Shown here in pieces: positions 1,378 through 63,864 of a stretch of DNA of 64,000 nucleotides (positions are counted from its first letter, which is position 1; every line of letters begins with the position of its first letter). The position numbers and the translations under genes are program-made. The notes under the pieces are model-generated. The model was given only the letters and a program-made list of their open reading frames with translations. It made no database searches and was not told the DNA's origin. Source of the stretch: Butyrivibrio fibrisolvens (GTDB lineage Bacteria; Bacillota; Clostridia; Lachnospirales; Lachnospiraceae). The stretch lies in NCBI RefSeq assembly GCF_023206215.1, contig NZ_CP065800.1:2232001-2296000 (forward strand), written 5' to 3'.

Positions 1378-2594
1378 TAACAATACTTATAGCAGGAGCA
1401 GGGGCGTCGGGTATGTGTGCTGCGATCACAGCAGCAAGACAAGGCGCCCATGTTATCCTTTTGGAAAAAAATGATATAGCAGGCAAGAAGATCTCCATGA
1501 CTGGCAATGGGCGCTGTAATATAACCAATGAAGCCATGAGTGCTTCATGCTATAATCTTAGTGCACAGGGCAAAATGGAGGGATGGCTTCAAAGATTCGG
1601 AGTAGCGAAGACTTTGGAATTCATGAAGTCTCTGGGAGTTGTGATTCAAAGCGAAGAAGGATATATATATCCTATATCCGGCCAGGCAGTCACAGTCCAG
1701 AATGCAATGATAGATGAGGTAGTAAGACTTGGCGTCGAATATATAACCGGTCAGCAGCTTAAAAAGATAACGCCTGTTGATGATGGAGGCTTTGAAGTTA
1801 AGACAACAGGTGGCTTATATAAAGCTGACAAAGTTATAATAGCAACAGGAGGCTTGTCAGGCCCAAAATCAACCATGTCTACAGGTGATAGTTATTATAT
1901 AGCGAAGAGCCTTGGAATGAATGTTACGAAGACATATCCGGCTCTTGTGGCGCTTTTGTCTGATGACAAAGACCTGCCGTCCAAGTACGGAGTCAGAATG
2001 ATGGCCGGTATTAGAATTAAAGAAATCGAAGACTTGTATGAATACGGCGAAGTGCAGATTACATCCAAAGGAATATCAGGAATCCCTGTCCTTCAGCTAA
2101 GTGGGCGCGTGGCACAGTACATGGCTGATAACAAGGGGACTGTTACTGCGTTTTTGGATTTCTTCCCGACATATTCTGACGATGATTTTGCCAATATGAA
2201 AAAAGATATCATAGAAGTATCAAGAGGTAAGACATATATCCAGGTACTTGATGGAATCAGTAATCATCTTATAGGCCTTATGATACTGTCAAGACTAGGC
2301 ATAAAAGAAGATACCGTTATAGATGCTAATAGCATAGACGATCTTGAAAGAGTTATTGATAACTATAGAAATGTTAGAATAAATATAGTCGCTACTTCTG
2401 ACTATGTATCATCTCAGGTTACTAAAGGCGGAGTTGATCTTAATGATCTGACAGATGATCTTGAATCAGTTCATACACCCGGAGTGTATGTTGTCGGCGA
2501 ACTTGCAGATGTTGACGGAAGATGCGGAGGGTATAATCTTCAGTGGGCATTTACAAGCGGGTATATCGCAGGGATGGCTGCTGCGGGCCGATAG
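1374..2594 (+). CDS. NAD(P)/FAD-dependent oxidoreductase, HI0933/BaiN-like family
   Basis: A 406-residue flavoprotein. The N-terminus carries a Rossmann dinucleotide-binding motif (IAGAGASGMCAA, residues 4-15), followed by the family signature GKKISMTGNGRCNITN (about residues 37-52). A second FAD-contact segment, IIATGGLSGPK, lies near residue 160. The C-terminus ends with the typical GVYVVGELADVDGRCGGYN block and a YIAGMAAA helix that closes the FAD site. Length matches the HI0933 family. Members are flavoenzymes of mostly unknown substrate; BaiN reduces bile-acid intermediates in some gut clostridia, but nothing here indicates that substrate. It overlaps the upstream flippase by 4 bp and lies 54 bp before another FAD protein. 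Confidence 0.85.
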   Translation: MITILIAGAGASGMCAAITAARQGAHVILLEKNDIAGKKISMTGNGRCNITNEAMSASCYNLSAQGKMEGWLQRFGVAKTLEFMKSLGVVIQSEEGYIYPISGQAVTVQNAMIDEVVRLGVEYITGQQLKKITPVDDGGFEVKTTGGLYKADKVIIATGGLSGPKSTMSTGDSYYIAKSLGMNVTKTYPALVALLSDDKDLPSKYGVRMMAGIRIKEIEDLYEYGEVQITSKGISGIPVLQLSGRVAQYMADNKGTVTAFLDFFPTYSDDDFANMKKDIIEVSRGKTYIQVLDGISNHLIGLMILSRLGIKEDTVIDANSIDDLERVIDNYRNVRINIVATSDYVSSQVTKGGVDLNDLTDDLESVHTPGVYVVGELADVDGRCGGYNLQWAFTSGYIAGMAAAGR

Positions 2595-2648
2595 TAAATC
2601 ACTATCTTATAAGCATATATACAAGAATACAGTAATTTAAGGAAATAT

Positions 2649-4316
2649 ATGATCAGAATCAGTAATATTAAAGTTAAAAACGGCTCAGAAGCATCGCAAT
2701 ATACAAATGGTGTCATGGAACCAGAGGCTCTTTCAAGGAGCCTTATTCCGGTTGCAGCCAAAGCGCTGAAGATAGATGCTAAAGCTATAGCAGATCTGAG
2801 CGTATTCAGGCACTCGATTGATGCTCGTAAGAAGCCTGACATATTTGATATATATACAATTGATATATCACTTAACATAAATGAGAAAAAGGCACTTCAA
2901 AAAGCCCGTAATAAAAACGCACAGCTTTTTGAACCCATTGTTTATAAACTTCCTGAACTTGGGACTAATAAGATGACTAAGCCTCCTGTTGTAGTTGGCG
3001 CAGGTCCTTGCGGTCTTTTTGCAGCGTATGAACTGGCATGTCTTGGCTTTAAACCTATACTTATAGAAAGGGGAAGAGCAGTAGAAGACAGGCAGAAGGA
3101 CGTTGAGAACTTCTGGAAGACAGGAGTCCTTGATACGACATCCAATGTCCAGTTTGGTGAAGGCGGCGCGGGAGCATTCTCAGACGGCAAGCTCAATACC
3201 ATGGTCCGTGACAAAGACGGAATAGGAAGGCGTGCACTTAAGATATTCATAGATCATGGCGCTCCAAAAGAGATATATTATGAAGCAAAGCCCCATATAG
3301 GCACGGATAAGCTGGTTGATGTAGTTAAGAACATAAGAGAAGACATTAAAAGTATGGGCGGACAGGTTTTATTCGAAACCAAAATGTCCGGTCTTATTAT
3401 GACAGATGCACATGTGACAGGCGTGAAAGTCACTGATAGAGCAGGAAATGAATCTGTGATCGAGACAGATACTGTTGTCATGGCTATAGGCCATAGCGCA
3501 AGAGATACCTTTGAAGTTCTAAATAGTGAAGGTGTATATATGGAGCCTAAGGCATTTGCAGTAGGCCTTCGCGTAGAACATCCTCAAAAGAATATCAACA
3601 GATCTCAGTACGGAGTATATGAAAGTCCCACACTTCCTGCTTCTCCTTATAAAGTTGTACATAATACTTCCAAGGGTAGGGGCGTATATTCTTTTTGCAT
3701 GTGTCCGGGAGGACATGTAGTCAATGCTTCATCTGAAGAGGGATACCTGTGCGTTAACGGAATGAGCTACTATGCCCGTGATTCCAAAAATGCCAATAGT
3801 GCGATCATAGTAACCGTTAAGCCTGAAGACTTTGGAGGGGAAGGACCTCTATGCGGAGTGAAGTTCCAAAGAGAGCTTGAGAAGAGAGCCTTTGAACTTG
3901 GAAAGGGCAAAGTTCCGGTAGAATACCTTGTTGACTATAGAAAAAAAGGAACAGTAAAAGGTAATACTGATGAAAGAAAAGACTGGAACACTCCATGCAT
4001 AAAGGGCGACTACGTATTTGCAAGTGTTCATGACCTTCTTCCTGATGATTTTAAAGAGGCTATAGATGAGGGTATGAGCGCTTTTGGCAGGATGATAGAA
4101 GGATTTGATGCTGATGATACTCTTATGGAAGGCGTTGAGAGCAGGACATCATCTCCTGTAAGAATCACAAGAGGAGAGGATCTTCAGGCTATTAATACTA
4201 AAGGCTTATATCCTTGCGGAGAAGGTGCAGGATATGCAGGCGGTATCATGTCAGCAGCTATGGATGGTATGAAAGTTGCTGCAAAGATCTGCTCAGAGCG
4301 ATGTCCTGGTATGTAA
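2649..4316 (+). CDS. FAD-dependent dehydrogenase-like protein (COG2509 type)
   Basis: A 555-residue protein. The first ~110 residues form a small alpha/beta domain (VRISNIK-like start, IDISLNINEKKAL) typical of this family. A Rossmann FAD motif follows (VVVGAGPCGLFAAYELA, about residues 114-130), then the characteristic SNVQFGEGGAGAFSDGKLNT block, and a C-terminal GLYPCGEGAGYAGGIMSAAMDGM FAD-closing motif. These features define the widespread but biochemically uncharacterised COG2509 flavoproteins. The start has an AAGGAA ribosome binding site 5 nt upstream. It is probably cotranscribed with the preceding oxidoreductase. Substrate unknown. Confidence 0.85.
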   Translation: MIRISNIKVKNGSEASQYTNGVMEPEALSRSLIPVAAKALKIDAKAIADLSVFRHSIDARKKPDIFDIYTIDISLNINEKKALQKARNKNAQLFEPIVYKLPELGTNKMTKPPVVVGAGPCGLFAAYELACLGFKPILIERGRAVEDRQKDVENFWKTGVLDTTSNVQFGEGGAGAFSDGKLNTMVRDKDGIGRRALKIFIDHGAPKEIYYEAKPHIGTDKLVDVVKNIREDIKSMGGQVLFETKMSGLIMTDAHVTGVKVTDRAGNESVIETDTVVMAIGHSARDTFEVLNSEGVYMEPKAFAVGLRVEHPQKNINRSQYGVYESPTLPASPYKVVHNTSKGRGVYSFCMCPGGHVVNASSEEGYLCVNGMSYYARDSKNANSAIIVTVKPEDFGGEGPLCGVKFQRELEKRAFELGKGKVPVEYLVDYRKKGTVKGNTDERKDWNTPCIKGDYVFASVHDLLPDDFKEAIDEGMSAFGRMIEGFDADDTLMEGVESRTSSPVRITRGEDLQAINTKGLYPCGEGAGYAGGIMSAAMDGMKVAAKICSERCPGM

Positions 4317-4449
4317 CATGGCAGGATATACAATGGACATTGTGCATGAGGATGTATTGCATATAGCCATTTGTATAGATCTGATGATATAAGTAATAGT
4401 TCTATGTTTTATGAACGAATCATCACACTAGAGATTTGGAGTAGTTGTT

Positions 4450-5115
4450 TTGGACAAGCAGGATTATAGAAAAGCGGCTCTTGCAAGAAGAGATGCTATA
4501 CCCGAGATAGACAGAGAGCGTTACAGCCGGATGATAATAGACAAGCTCCTTGAATCTAAAGAGCTAAACGACGCAGATAGCGTATTGGTATATTGTTCGT
4601 ATCTTTCAGAAGTAGATACGCATACTCTTATAGAAAGATTACTATATAAAGGCAAGAGAGTATATTGCCCTAAGGTGACGGACCCTAAAAATGGAATTAT
4701 GGAATTCTATGAAGTAAGAGGCATGAAAGACCTGACAGAAGGCTATCACGGAATTCCTGAGCCTGTAACTACGGATAGATATGTGACTGGGGAGGCTATG
4801 CATGATTTGGACTTAAATCATGCAGATGATATACATGAGCCCCCTTATCATGAAGATACTAATCATACAGATATGCTGCATACAGATACTCTTATGATTC
4901 TTCCGGGTGTTGCTTTTGATAGAGACTGCAACAGGATCGGCTACAGGGGCGGCTTTTACGACCGCTATATTCCAAGGATTCCCGGAGCATATCTTATAGC
5001 CTTGGCTTTTGAGGAGCAGATATCAGAAGATATTTTCCCGATGGAAAGTCATGATATAAAGCCTGATGCGATATATACTCAGGCTAGGATAATAGGGCAT
5101 GAATTCATAAAATGA
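4450..5115 (+). CDS. 5-formyltetrahydrofolate cyclo-ligase with a His/Asp-rich insertion
   Basis: Converts 5-formyl-THF to 5,10-methenyl-THF with ATP in one-carbon metabolism. The C-terminal signature LPGVAFDRDCNRIGYRGGFYDRY (about residues 151-173) is intact, and the N-terminal KAALARRDAIPEIDRERYS helix matches the family. The start is TTG, chosen because GGAG lies 8 nt upstream (4438-4441). The oddity is a low-complexity stretch of about 30 residues rich in His and Asp (about residues 116-147, including NHADDIHEPP and HEDTNHTDMLH) just before the conserved core. Most homologues are about 180-195 residues; this one has 221. The insert looks like a surface loop and could bind metal, but that is a guess. 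A remnant of the R1 palindrome begins at the stop codon. Confidence 0.88.
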   Translation: MDKQDYRKAALARRDAIPEIDRERYSRMIIDKLLESKELNDADSVLVYCSYLSEVDTHTLIERLLYKGKRVYCPKVTDPKNGIMEFYEVRGMKDLTEGYHGIPEPVTTDRYVTGEAMHDLDLNHADDIHEPPYHEDTNHTDMLHTDTLMILPGVAFDRDCNRIGYRGGFYDRYIPRIPGAYLIALAFEEQISEDIFPMESHDIKPDAIYTQARIIGHEFIK

Positions 5116-5193
5116 TTAACAGTGTGTCAATGATTTATATACAGCCTCCCCTGTAAAGGCTGGTCCGTCCAAGTGGAAGGCTGTAGTTAGACA
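5113..5193 (+). repeat. R1 palindrome remnant (one arm only)
   Basis: This interval aligns by eye with the right arm of the full R1 palindrome at 30942-31222. It has gattaac, then a tcaatgatttatata block, then gcct-cccc, a gtaaaggctggtccgtccaagtgg stretch broken by one internal deletion of about 15 bp, and the outer flank ggctgtagttagac. The partner arm and the loop are absent, so it cannot form the long hairpin. It lies between the 5-FCL stop codon and the aldolase start, oriented like the full copy with its outer end toward the downstream + strand gene. Confidence 0.65.
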
Positions 5194-5225
5194 AATATTA
5201 AGATTTTGGAAAGCAGGAATTATAA

Positions 5226-6293
5226 ATGGATCCACGACAGGAAATTATTAATATTGGAAAACAGCTTCATGATCAGGGACTTCTTGTAAGAACCTGGGGG
5301 AATATATCATGCAGACTTGATAAAGACCGTATACTTATAACTCCAAGCGGTATACAGTATGAAGACCTTACACCTGAGATGATCGCGGAAGTCAATCTTG
5401 GAGATCTCTCATGGGAAGGCAAATGCAAACCTTCAAGCGAGCTTCTGGTACATGTTGCCTGTTATAATGCACGAAGCGATATCAGATTTATAATCCATAC
5501 CCATCAGGTTTTTGCTACTGTGGCAGGATCTCTTGGTGTTAAGGAGATCCGGGCTATGGTTGACGGCGATGACGTAAGGATACCATGCGCTCCATATGCA
5601 CTCCCCGGAACCAGAAAGCTTGCAGATAACGTTAAGAAGACTATCCAGAAATATAAATCAGATAATGGAATAGTCATGTCCAATCACGGAACTATCTGCA
5701 TGGGCACGATAAGCGATGAAGCTCTGGAATGTGCAATGGAGATGGAGGAAGCTTCAAAGCTCTTTTTGCACGGGTATTGCCATATGGATATTGAAAGCGA
5801 GTTTATTGAAGGCTTCAGCTCACATATCAATAGCGGCAGCATCATATATGATAAGCCGGATACTCCTTACAGGATCAAGCGGATGCATGAAGAGATATAC
5901 GCCAAAAGACCTGATGTGAGATATATAGTTCACAACAAGTCACAGGCTTGCAAGATCGTATCAAGGCGTGCCACACATATGAAGCCTCTGCTTGATGATT
6001 TCGCCCAGCTTGTAGGTACAAGTGTAAGGATACCGATCAATCATCATGGACATGATGGAAATCGTATTATCGTCAAGAAGAATGTCAACGCTGTTTTTTC
6101 ACTGGATGATGGAGCTTTTTGTCTGGGACAGACAAAGGATGATGCATATGCTACGGCACTAGTACTGGACAAGGCTTGTATAGCGCAGATAGCGGCATCC
6201 AGATATGGAAGCGCCAATTTCCTTTCCTACAGAGATTGCCTTAAAATGAACAGACATTATAGAAACTCCTATTCCAAGCTGGCAAAAAGGTGA
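5226..6293 (+). CDS. Tandem class II aldolase/adducin-family protein
   Basis: A 355-residue protein made of two class II aldolase (FucA/AraD-like) domains. Domain 1 (about residues 1-195) has the NISCRL phosphate-binding start, the zinc motif HTHQVFATV near residue 95 and SNHGTICMG near residue 155. Domain 2 (about residues 215-345) repeats the fold (RYIVHNKSQACKIVS, then NAVFSLDDGAFCLG), but the HxH zinc motif has become HNK, so it is probably not catalytic. The usual substrate class is sugar phosphates such as fuculose-1-phosphate; the exact one cannot be read. The lactonase gene follows 70 bp downstream with its own candidate promoter. Confidence 0.8.
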   Translation: MDPRQEIINIGKQLHDQGLLVRTWGNISCRLDKDRILITPSGIQYEDLTPEMIAEVNLGDLSWEGKCKPSSELLVHVACYNARSDIRFIIHTHQVFATVAGSLGVKEIRAMVDGDDVRIPCAPYALPGTRKLADNVKKTIQKYKSDNGIVMSNHGTICMGTISDEALECAMEMEEASKLFLHGYCHMDIESEFIEGFSSHINSGSIIYDKPDTPYRIKRMHEEIYAKRPDVRYIVHNKSQACKIVSRRATHMKPLLDDFAQLVGTSVRIPINHHGHDGNRIIVKKNVNAVFSLDDGAFCLGQTKDDAYATALVLDKACIAQIAASRYGSANFLSYRDCLKMNRHYRNSYSKLAKR

Positions 6294-10627: not shown

Positions 10628-10921
10628 GGTCGGTGTAGTATCTTCAAAGGCTTTGCAAGTGGGATGTAACTTGCGGCGGACAGAATATAAATCATTACCA
10701 CGCTGCTAATTGTTTTATTAATTCATGGCATGATATCTGGAGCTTTTTATTCTGGGGTCCAAACTCGCTTCGCTCAGACATATGGACCCCTGGCAGAATA
10801 AAAATCTCCATCTATCACGCTCATGAATTATATAAAACAATTAAAAGCGTGGTAATGATTTATATTCTGTCCGCCGCAAGTCACATCCCCTTGCAAAGCC
10901 TTTGAAGATACTACACCGACC
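10628..10921 (-). repeat. R1-A: giant near-perfect palindrome (294 bp)
   Basis: The left arm (10628-10760) and right arm (10784-10921) are complementary over about 130 bp around a 23-nt loop containing actcgcttcgctcagac. The outer ~85 bp differ at only a few positions. Reading the minus strand (toward aroC) the loop is gtctgagcgaagcgagttt. The core shows asymmetries shared by every copy: one arm has catggc and attctggggtcc, the other has catgagc and an extra 4 nt before ggggtcc. There is no T-tract, so it is not a simple terminator, and no plausible gene lies inside. Bases 10922-11072, between this copy and R1-B, hold nothing recognisable. Confidence 0.95.
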
Positions 10922-11072
10922 AAGTGTAAAGTAGTAGTTATAAAACACAGAAAACTTAATTTATTATACATTATTACTGCATAAATTCAACACTTTAAAG
11001 TCAGAGAATAAGGCACTGGCACATAGAAATGCATCCATAAGCAATTACATACGCAGCGTATATTCCTGGCTT

Positions 11073-11366
11073 GGGCGGCATGGTATCCTCGAAGGTTGGC
11101 GGGAGTGGGTAGACGATGGGTGAGCAGAATATAAATCATTGTCACGCTTTTTAATTGGTTTATAAAATTCATGAGTATGATAGATGGAGCTTTTTATTCT
11201 GCATGGGGTCCACATGTCTGAGCGAAGCGAGTTTGGACCCCAGAATAAAAAGGGACAGATATCATGCCATGAATTTATAAACCAATTAACAGCGTGACAA
11301 AGATCTATATTCTGCCCGCCCATCGTCTACCCACTTCTGCTAACCTTCGAGGATACCATGCCGCCC
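11073..11366 (+). repeat. R1-B: giant near-perfect palindrome (294 bp), inverted relative to R1-A
   Basis: Complementary arms flank a loop read on the + strand as acatgtctgagcgaagcgagttt, the reverse of R1-A. The outer arms (gggcggcatggtatcctcgaagg and the matching right end) do not resemble R1-A's outer arms, yet pair with each other. The middle block (cagaatataaatcattgtcacgc) and the core are shared with the other copies. It lies about 100 bp upstream of the promoter of the + strand peptidase gene, so R1-A and R1-B together fill the aroC/peptidase divergent intergenic region. Confidence 0.95.
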
Positions 11367-30402: not shown

Positions 30403-30431
30403 CTCAACCTCTTAGACTTTCCGCTTGGCCT

Positions 30432-30685
30432 GAGCAGTATCGCCAAAGGATTTGCAGGGACGGGCAGTATATAGATCATTGACATGCTGTTAATCGTTTT
30501 ATACTTCATGGCACGATATCTGGATCTTTTCATTCTGGGGTCCAAACTCGCTACGCTCAGACATGTGGACCCCGGGCAGAATGAAAATCTCCATCTATCA
30601 TGCTCATGAAGTTAATAAAACGATTAAAAGCATGCCAATGATCTATATACTGCCCGTCCCTGCAAATCCTTTGTCGATACTGCTC
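30432..30685 (-). repeat. R1-C: giant near-perfect palindrome (about 254 bp)
   Basis: The arms (starting gagcagtatcg at left and ending cgatactgctc at right) pair around the loop aaactcgctacgctcagac. On the minus strand, toward the AraC gene, the loop reads gtctgagcgtagcgagttt. The middle block cagtatatagatcattgacatgct and the core with the catggc/catgagc and 4-nt bulge asymmetries are shared with R1-A, B and D; the outer arms are private. Bases 30686-30941, between R1-C and R1-D, are AT-rich with no gene seen. Confidence 0.95.
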
Positions 30686-30941
30686 TGGCTAAATGTGAAG
30701 TTTAGTTTATCTTAAATATTCAACCTTAAAATAACTTCAAACAATGTAAACTATTGCAAATCAAAGTTAAAAAATCCCTTATCTAATACACCTTATGACA
30801 AAGCAAAAGGAAAAAGTGCGTGCTATCAGATATTTATACAATAAACAACCCTAAAAATCAATCTTAAAAAATGTCGGATTATGCTTAAGATTCCCTATGT
30901 AGTTACACCCTCTTTTTACATAAAATCTATAAATAACTACC

Positions 30942-31222
30942 CCCACTTGTCCGGACCGGCATCCTCAAAAGTCTTTACTGGGGCAGGCAGTATATAAATC
31001 ATTGCCACGCTTTTTAATCGTTTTGTAGAATTCATGAGCGTGATAGCTGGAGGTTTTTATTCTGCCCGGGGTCCACATGTCTGAGCGAAGCGAGTTTGGA
31101 CCCCAGAATAAAAAGCTTCAGATATCATGCCATGAAGTCTAAAAACGATTAAAGCGTGGCAATGATTTATATACTGCCTGCCCCAGTAAAGACTTTTGAG
31201 GATGCCGGTCCGGACAAGTGGG
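30942..31222 (+). repeat. R1-D: giant near-perfect palindrome (281 bp), inverted relative to R1-C
   Basis: The outermost ~70 bp of the two arms (from cccacttgtccggaccgg inward) are identical as complements, and the loop reads gtctgagcgaagcgagttt on the + strand, toward the GH3 gene 76 bp downstream. With R1-C it fills the AraC/GH3 divergent region, as R1-A/B fill the aroC/peptidase region. Outside the right arm is the flank caagtgggcaactatagtc, similar to the flank of the remnant at 5113-5193. Confidence 0.95.
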
Positions 31223-55849: not shown

Positions 55850-55884
55850 GCCGTCACACTGTTTTGGTGTGGCGGCTTTTTTTG
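55850..55884 (+). terminator. Rho-independent terminator of the NifU-like/GGGtGRT operon
   Basis: GCCGTCACAC pairs with GTGTGGCGGC (one wobble) around a short loop, then T7. Confidence 0.9.
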
Positions 55885-63298: not shown

Positions 63299-63334
63299 AC
63301 TGATATAATGATATAAAGCGTAAAAATAAATGAC

Positions 63335-63632
63335 TCAAACTTCGCACTTGCCAAACATACGCCACCCTCTGAGGCAGAGCCAATGCAGCCCGTTTATAAT
63401 ACATTTTCGTATCTTGAATGTGTTATAATTCAGGGCAAGATATCTGGATCTTTATATTCTAGGGTCCAAACTCGCTTCGCTCAGACAGGTGGACCCTAAG
63501 AAGAATATAAAGATCCAGATATCTTGCTCCTGAATTTAATAACACCTTCAAAAGATACGAAAATGTATTATAAACGGGCTGCATTGTCTCTGCCTCAGAG
63601 GGTGGTGTATGTTTGGCAAGTGCGAAGTTTGA
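63335..63632 (-). repeat. R1-E: giant near-perfect palindrome (298 bp) with divergent arms
   Basis: The arms run from tcaaacttcgcacttgcc at left to ggcaagtgcgaagtttga at right, around the loop aaactcgcttcgctcagac. The core (gatatctggatctttatattct, agggtcc) keeps the same asymmetries as the other copies: an extra A (caggagc against cagggc) and an extra 4 nt before agggtcc. The rest of both arms is unrelated to R1-A to D but self-complementary. It lies downstream of the MATE gene. Bases 63633-63864 show no gene; there are short aagatctcgaaaaa direct repeats near 63670. Confidence 0.95.
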
Positions 63633-63864
63633 ATAAATGAAATAAAAGGTAAAATAATTTCGAAGAAGATCTCGAAAAAAGATCTCGAAAAAAAGATGTG
63701 ACGTGTGCTTCTAATGATCCGTCTTATAGTTTAGAAGGGCAAAAAGCCGGAATAACATATTCGCAGTTTGCTGACGTTTTAATGATCTGTTATGAATGCG
63801 TCAGTAGTGCAGGCGATGAAACAAAAAAGTACAATTCCCCAACATGGGGGTGAGGAGGATTATT

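Follow-up and report, generated by a model that had tools for sequence, protein, structure and literature searches.

Introduction

Bacterial MITEs such as Correia/NEMIS, RUP and Nezha are short, multi-copy, intergenic elements with terminal inverted repeats and target duplication and with no conserved gene. ERIC and YPAL are large intergenic palindromes present in many copies. REPs are about 20–40 nt long and have a GTAG-type foot, and RAYT is a Y1 transposase longer than that of IS200. Owing to hairpin nucleases, long palindromes are considered unstable in bacteria, and d(GCGNAGC) forms a very stable, nuclease-resistant GNA minihairpin.

Here we describe R1, a family of palindromes found in a 64,000-nt stretch of Butyrivibrio fibrisolvens DNA (the window). 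R1 is like the MITEs in its short, multi-copy, intergenic form, its inverted ends, its target duplication and its lack of a conserved gene, but it is palindromic over the whole 300 bp, its arms change in concert and its core holds a polar loop that is shared across phyla. With ERIC and YPAL it shares the form of large, intergenic, multi-copy palindromes; its arms are longer, and it differs further in its direct duplications and cross-phylum loop. Hairpins, inverted pairs and an ssDNA hairpin as a possible substrate are common to R1 and REP/REPIN-RAYT, whereas R1 measures 281–298 bp, has direct duplications, and is found in a genome (G000, the window's own) with Y1 frames of only 137–157 aa and no RAYT-sized protein. 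The complement of the R1 loop contains the GNA minihairpin motif GCGNAGC with a free N, but at 20 nt the shared loop exceeds the minihairpin in length, and a DNA model predicts no minihairpin. On sequence comparison, R1 appears MITE-like, and its new features would be the palindromic whole and the widely shared tip module. The reading that we consider reasonably probable is that R1 is a MITE-like, non-autonomous, near-perfect palindrome with a cross-phylum loop module, in which a single-stranded form is selected and the arms change in concert.

Results

R1 copies in the window form long hairpins

The two palindromes that were first noticed, A and B, are real: each is 294 bp long, and they lie 151 bp apart in inverted orientation. 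Three further copies bring the window total to five, with lengths of 281–298 bp. The features are as follows.

10628..10921, + strand: palindrome A, terminal repeats decayed
10761..10780, + strand: conserved loop of A, AAACTCGCTTCGCTCAGACA
10922..11072, no strand: AT-rich 151-bp spacer between A and B, unlike the spacers of other pairs
10963..10990, − strand: sigma70-like site TTGAAT-N16-TATAAT, directed through A to the chorismate synthase gene (consensus match only)
11073..11366, − strand: palindrome B, terminal repeats decayed
11215..11234, − strand: conserved loop of B, AAACTCGCTTCGCTCAGACA
30413..30704, + strand: palindrome C
30544..30563, + strand: loop of C, variant GCTACGC
30942..31222, − strand: palindrome D
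31078..31097, − strand: loop of D
55879..55884, no strand: element-free site at which a second genome (G061) has 282 bp extra
63325..63333, no strand: left target-site duplication of E, AATAAATGA
63335..63632, + strand: palindrome E, terminal repeats intact
63468..63487, + strand: loop of E
63632..63640, no strand: right target-site duplication of E, AATAAATGA

As RNA, A is predicted to form 128 pairs (128 Watson-Crick, 0 GU) and B also 128 (122 + 6). As ssDNA, A folds at −131.3 kcal/mol (z −23.8) and B at −118.6 kcal/mol (z −20.3), and none of 100 shuffles of either folded as well. A chance origin of the palindromes was ruled out by these shuffles and by reversed-pattern controls. The terminal repeats are decayed in A and B and retained in other copies. 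E is probably young, as its identity to other copies reaches 97%.

The A–B pair is flanked by genes for chorismate synthase (−) and a VanY-type carboxypeptidase (+). The C–D pair has an AraC regulator gene (−) on one side and a GH3 enzyme gene (+) on the other, and E comes after a MatE transporter gene. E is also matched in plasmid pNP243 of B. fibrisolvens D1, with no annotated feature under the match. A and B had been described as having outer arms unrelated in sequence; the five-copy alignment shows instead that these arms are diverged homologues with a common GTATC-TC-AAGG block, and over 172 nt the two palindromes are 89% complementary.

R1 is abundant in two near-complete genomes

We searched G000 with a covariance model of the core, which matched 149 of 150 scored sequences from 2679 candidates. 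These matches map to 111 separate places; two of these are a single place that the overlapping ends of contig C1 duplicate, so that about 110 copies remain; the figure is a lower bound, as only part of the candidates was scored. A loop-plus-stem pattern with up to three mismatches found 57 copies in the same genome and none in its reversed control. The exact loop occurs 87 times in G000 and 82 times in the second near-complete genome, G061. The initial observation was to be abandoned if the core, with arms that diverge yet still pair, were absent from every other genome; G061, with its 82 exact loops, shows that it is not. The 46 of its copies kept for analysis sit on large hairpins, as selected by a filter that retained only folds below −95 kcal/mol.

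The remaining 77 of the 79 genus genomes hold 12 exact loops in sum, 2 in G034 and 10 in G102, and 75 of the 79 have none. Another genome, G013, has a partial copy with no loop, on a contig that extends 5.5 kb past the match. Across the phylum the exact loop was found in 11 of 398 genomes, and its reversed control in none. This distribution, with the rich genomes being the two-contig G000 and the three-contig G061, is what an assembly artefact might produce. The palindromes are, however, carried by both near-complete assemblies and by the RefSeq plasmid of B. fibrisolvens D1 (a strain that may be identical with that of G061), the two genomes have three sites in common, and G102, although 80% complete, still has 10 loops, of which the one examined is a −139 kcal hairpin well inside its contig. 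Because the near-complete assemblies agree and share three sites, an artefact is hardly credible.

Absence from fragmented genus assemblies may be loss in assembly. The assemblies G001–G024 comprise 20 to 380 contigs each. Another fragmented genome of the phylum, G290, has 36 loops; all six loops fetched among the ten listed are no more than 70 bp from a contig end, four of the six having been picked for nearness to a contig start. Both G034 loops are also close to a contig end, at about 95 and 140 bp. B. hungatei is reported to have the lowest inverted-repeat number (PMC10434271). A partial literature search for the loop motif, judged by title among the matches listed, found no paper on the topic.

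Three side observations concern these counts. The first and last ~11 kb of contig C1 of G000 repeat each other (L337 and L338 are 99.87% identical over 3.9 kb), so the circular contigs are untrimmed and end-proximal counts are doubled. On the second contig, the stretches compared at C2:16350–16950 and C2:322900–323500 (L318, L321) look identical. When the loop pattern was reversed as a control, it matched 4 times in the genus, each time in G061; the loop is near its own mirror image, and a mirror variant may thus exist.

Terminal repeats and target duplications indicate mobility

The terminal repeats, CTCAAACTTC[C/G]CACTTG, were found at 228 places in the search, compared with 9 for the reversed control. 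Both terminal motifs were present in 36 copies, one of which had no left flank, and the other 35 were scored for direct repeats. Direct repeats of at least 7 bp flanked 15 of these 35 copies, whereas a control that paired the flanks of different copies averaged 1.0 and never exceeded 4; at the canonical offsets the count was 12 copies, with a control mean of 0.7 and a maximum of 2. The repeats are AT-rich and 7–10 bp long, and E, for example, has AATAAATGA on both sides. No direct repeat of this length was seen in the other 20 copies, which counts against the mobile reading. None of the copies was centred in an open reading frame, either in G000 (0/66) or in G061 (0/46), giving 0/112 in total with an ORF caller that drops frames lying mostly within a palindrome. 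Terminal inverted repeats, target-site duplication and a high, dispersed, intergenic copy number are features by which MITEs are recognised, and R1 has these three.

At the element-free site of the window (55879–55884), the 282 bp extra in G061 form a loop-bearing palindrome of another subfamily (L255) that has no CTCAAAC ends; the difference reflects either an insertion in G061 or a deletion in the window genome. Short forms of ~48, 79 and 181 bp, seen among the loci listed of 40, have the same ends and no core. They look like internal deletions, not outer shells, and the idea that the arms generally arose by nesting of palindromes was rejected.

A MITE would derive from an autonomous element with matching ends, and we looked for such a mover among the insertion sequences. 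No IS with R1 ends was found among the IS256 (0 present), IS1634, IS1182 and IS200-type copies, or among the first ~100 of the 228 terminal-repeat places. IS256 was rejected as a candidate with 0 matches to the family. IS1634-family elements lie in or beside palindromes, yet they have their own ends, and IS1182 copies have other ends too. RAYT and IS200 were rejected as well: the Y1 proteins are IS200-sized (3 matches in G000, with open frames of 137–157 aa). No gene recurred beside the loops except those for ABC ATPases and small spurious frames.

Several loci showed further rearrangements. IS1634-family elements lie within or adjoining the palindromes at L337 (G000:C1, about 1407–5267) and L336, with long direct duplications (~205 bp at L337); IS1634 may thus use palindromes as targets. 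At L078 (G000:C1:3367100–3370200) the palindrome extends into the flank with 92% matching over the 64 nt compared, and by a second measure it ranks highest of 111 copies, as if an element had inserted into the middle of an existing palindrome. The left arms of L043 and L089 are broken by the same insert, which starts with TTACATCCTGTAACA and is ~55 nt long in L043; it is possibly a second small element.

The two arms of a copy change together

That symmetry itself is maintained had been proposed from the divergent but complementary arms of A and B, and on balance this holds in the larger set. The closest relative of an arm was the opposite arm of its own copy in 46 of 65 cases in G000 and 26 of 46 in G061. 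Median arm identity was 92.5% within copies and 77.4% between copies in G000, and 89.1% and 72.2%, respectively, in G061, where the between-copy values were taken from 600 random pairs per genome. The core alignment (66 sequences, 65 of them distinct, with 35 pairs) contained 115 cells with two-sided changes compared with 22 in shuffles, and none of 500 shuffles reached this value; the number of pair types was less extreme (12/500). Transversions accounted for 51 of the 115 cells.

The three sites common to G000 and G061, whose flanks are 84–98% identical, allowed the same arms to be compared between genomes. Clear paired replacement was seen at two of them. The core arms of L082/L242 are 68 and 71% identical between genomes and 92.5 and 92.7% within each copy, and the outer arms of L096/L243 are 74 and 68% identical between genomes and 91 and 95% within copies. 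At the third site, L044/L240, the outer arms have changed (85 and 79% between genomes, 91 and 82% within copies), and those of the second genome match each other at only 82%. Two comparisons count against concerted change: the outer arms of L082/L242 are 90.5% identical between genomes and 80 and 78% within copies, and the cores of L044/L240 are 94–96% identical between genomes and 85–88% within copies. On balance, symmetry appears to be kept through copying from arm to arm or through conversion from other copies.

R1 copies are oriented relative to genes and to each other

The 5' side of the loop strand lies nearer a gene in 52 of 63 G000 copies and 32 of 45 G061 copies. Where the distances on the two sides differ by more than 100 bp, the bias is 36/38 and 19/24, respectively. 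It holds in G000 whatever the direction of the gene, and the opposite side of the loop is higher in A+T. Among loop loci from the wider genome collection, the 5' side was nearer a gene in 37 of 52, after 29 of 81 had been dropped for a predicted ORF spanning the locus. The outer ends are symmetric, so in Butyrivibrio the polarity would have to come from the core.

Neighbouring G000 copies within 1.2 kb of each other are head-to-head in 12 of 12 cases, so the arrangement is not due to chance in this genome, and the same was seen in 3 of 3 pairs among the places listed for G129 and G349. The rule does not extend to the collection, whose 12 close pairs comprise 4 head-to-head, 3 tail-to-tail (two of them from genomes titled Luteimonas) and 5 tandem pairs, and no close pair was present among the 50 places listed for G061. 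The spacers were rejected as part of the unit: in the 11 of 12 close pairs compared they are unrelated apart from terminal repeats. Some pair spacers hold ordinary genes, one of which presumably encodes dephospho-CoA kinase. By eye, no chromosome-wide strand bias of the copies was evident.

The tip loop caps stems of other sequence in distant bacteria

The 20-nt loop, AAACTCGCTNCGCTCARACA, also caps paired stems of other sequence across many phyla. An exact-loop scan with one genome per species found at least 117 stretches, compared with about 7 expected by chance in the whole collection (our own arithmetic). The titles among 80 listed stretches name Bacteroidota, Proteobacteria, Bacillota, Nitrospirota, Fusobacteriota and others, and six exact loops lie in virus contigs. 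Removal of duplicates from 131 collection loci left 109 non-redundant loops. As the exact loop was the query, its conservation is given by construction, and the tests are the closing stems, the bulge, the recurrence of the motif and the mispairs. A closing stem of at least 6 consecutive pairs was found at 75 of the 109 loops; when flanks were swapped, such stems numbered 3.9 on average and 9 at most over 200 rounds. At 22 of the loops the closing stem has fewer than 4 pairs. The flanks contain 97 distinct 7-mers in the 109 loops, and 35 of 52 scored loci have a one-sided bulge, an excess of 3–5 nt located 3' of the loop past the first stem. In two virus contigs, L111 and L113, the loop motif has no closing stem and lies with a common gene block, one protein of which looks Zot-like to us.

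The loop common to distant bacteria suggests a shared system that reads it. R1 could also be a plain MITE, whose passive loop became common by descent and horizontal spread and whose symmetry is a by-product of quasi-palindrome correction. Such an element would have the terminal repeats and direct duplications, the patchy spread over 11 of 398 phylum genomes and the core-less short forms with the same ends, but it sits poorly with stems that differ by lineage (the 97 flanking 7-mers of 109 loops) while the bulge and the same-strand motif persist, and with an orientation bias despite symmetric ends; we think it unlikely.

On the loop complement, the N of GCGNAGC is T, G, A or C in 53, 31, 20 and 5 of the 109 collection loops, respectively, and the position varies freely too in the 52 recurring motifs, a count that includes overlapping matches. 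A free N in the loop and in the recurring motif fits a GNA triloop and, together with the loss of arms in the 48-bp forms, would be expected if R1 were a DNA-structure element that does not transpose, in which palindromes at gene borders survive hairpin nucleases only with a GNA minihairpin cap. The DNA energy model leaves the loop open and places no minihairpin in it, the searched loop is longer than a minihairpin, and the terminal repeats and direct duplications indicate transposition; we consider a capped element of this non-transposing kind a quite improbable account of R1.

Mispairs point to the folded complement of the loop strand

In an inverted repeat, one-strandedness is possible only at unpaired places. 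Around 106 collection loops, the loop strand carries 52 occurrences of the motif CGCTNCG and the opposite strand 3, compared with 12 and 10 in distant windows; these counts include overlapping matches, and one match is the loop of an adjacent copy. Isolated mispairs read on the loop strand were A.C rather than G.T in a ratio of 49:8 in the inner arms and 94:43 in the outer arms of G000, and 25:6 in the inner arms of G061. The outer arms of G061 show an opposite, non-significant trend (33:50), which counts against a single-strand reading. In 118 other elements, taken from the collection scans and further loci and including some from virus contigs or the same genus, the ratio was 101:40; counted by element after 22 poorly paired ones had been dropped, it was 39:13 of 96. 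Collection genomes without those titled Lachnospiraceae gave 77:36, or 35:13 per element with 47 ties, and the elements titled as non-Lachnospiraceae that also passed the pairing threshold gave 53:27, or 23:10 per element (p 0.035).

An A.C on one strand is a G.T or G.U on the other, and the tolerated form would thus be the folded complement strand, 5'-TGTYTGAGCGNAGCGAGTTT-3'. What is read is probably this folded single strand complementary to the loop strand, either as RNA or as ssDNA.

If the folded strand is RNA, R1 might be a regulator transcribed in leaders or 3' ends and acting as an RNase III target, terminator or attenuator, with its pairing kept by selection on the RNA. The tolerance of G.U-type mispairs on one strand only, the intergenic position of the copies and the sigma70-like site upstream of A, directed towards the chorismate synthase gene, agree with this. 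Against it, the neighbouring genes of G000 copies lie in all orientations (17/17/15/14), promoter-like sites showed no family-wide excess on the proposed transcribed strand, and the 51 transversions among the 115 two-sided cells have no G.U intermediate. Searches of the window and 16 further loci at the Rfam gathering threshold returned nothing except tRNA and 5S; the best sub-threshold match to A was snR82, with 24.8 of 60 bits. A regulatory RNA is therefore, in our judgement, a rather improbable identity for R1.

Discussion

We favour the reading of R1 as a mobile, non-autonomous palindrome with a loop module. A full-length R1 would be ~290–300 bp and palindromic from end to end. Its mobility is seen in the repeats, the direct duplications and the copy number, and the enzyme would be a putative transposase that cuts at the CTCAAACTTC[C/G]CACTTG repeats and duplicates ~8 bp of AT-rich target. 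The tip loop with its 3' bulge of 3–5 nt is a module common to palindromes with other arms in distant bacteria. The core that holds the loop would give the element its polarity, and the sharing and polarity that we observed are consistent with a factor that reads the loop. The mispairs suggest that selection acts on a hairpin of the strand complementary to the loop, 5'-TGTYTGAGCGNAGCGAGTTT-3', as RNA or ssDNA. Within a copy the arms change together, presumably because one is copied onto the other or both are converted from other copies.

A wider reading, which we put forward only tentatively, is that R1 belongs to a cross-phylum class of mobile palindromes, set by the tip module TGTYTGAGCGNAGCGAGTTT, the bulge on a fixed side and the AGCGNAGCG repeats on the same strand, and that a widespread factor recognises the folded single-stranded module. 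Such a factor could move, orient or protect the palindromes while the arms turn over freely. If this class is real, breaks and losses in fragmented assemblies would help to explain why it has escaped notice.

Despite the expected instability of long palindromes, one genome retains about 110 of them and a relative has 82 loops. The paired rewriting of arms at orthologous sites makes conversion from arm to arm or from copy to copy measurable in natural genomes, and the constant loop on differing stems in distant phyla gives a starting point for identifying the factor that would read it.
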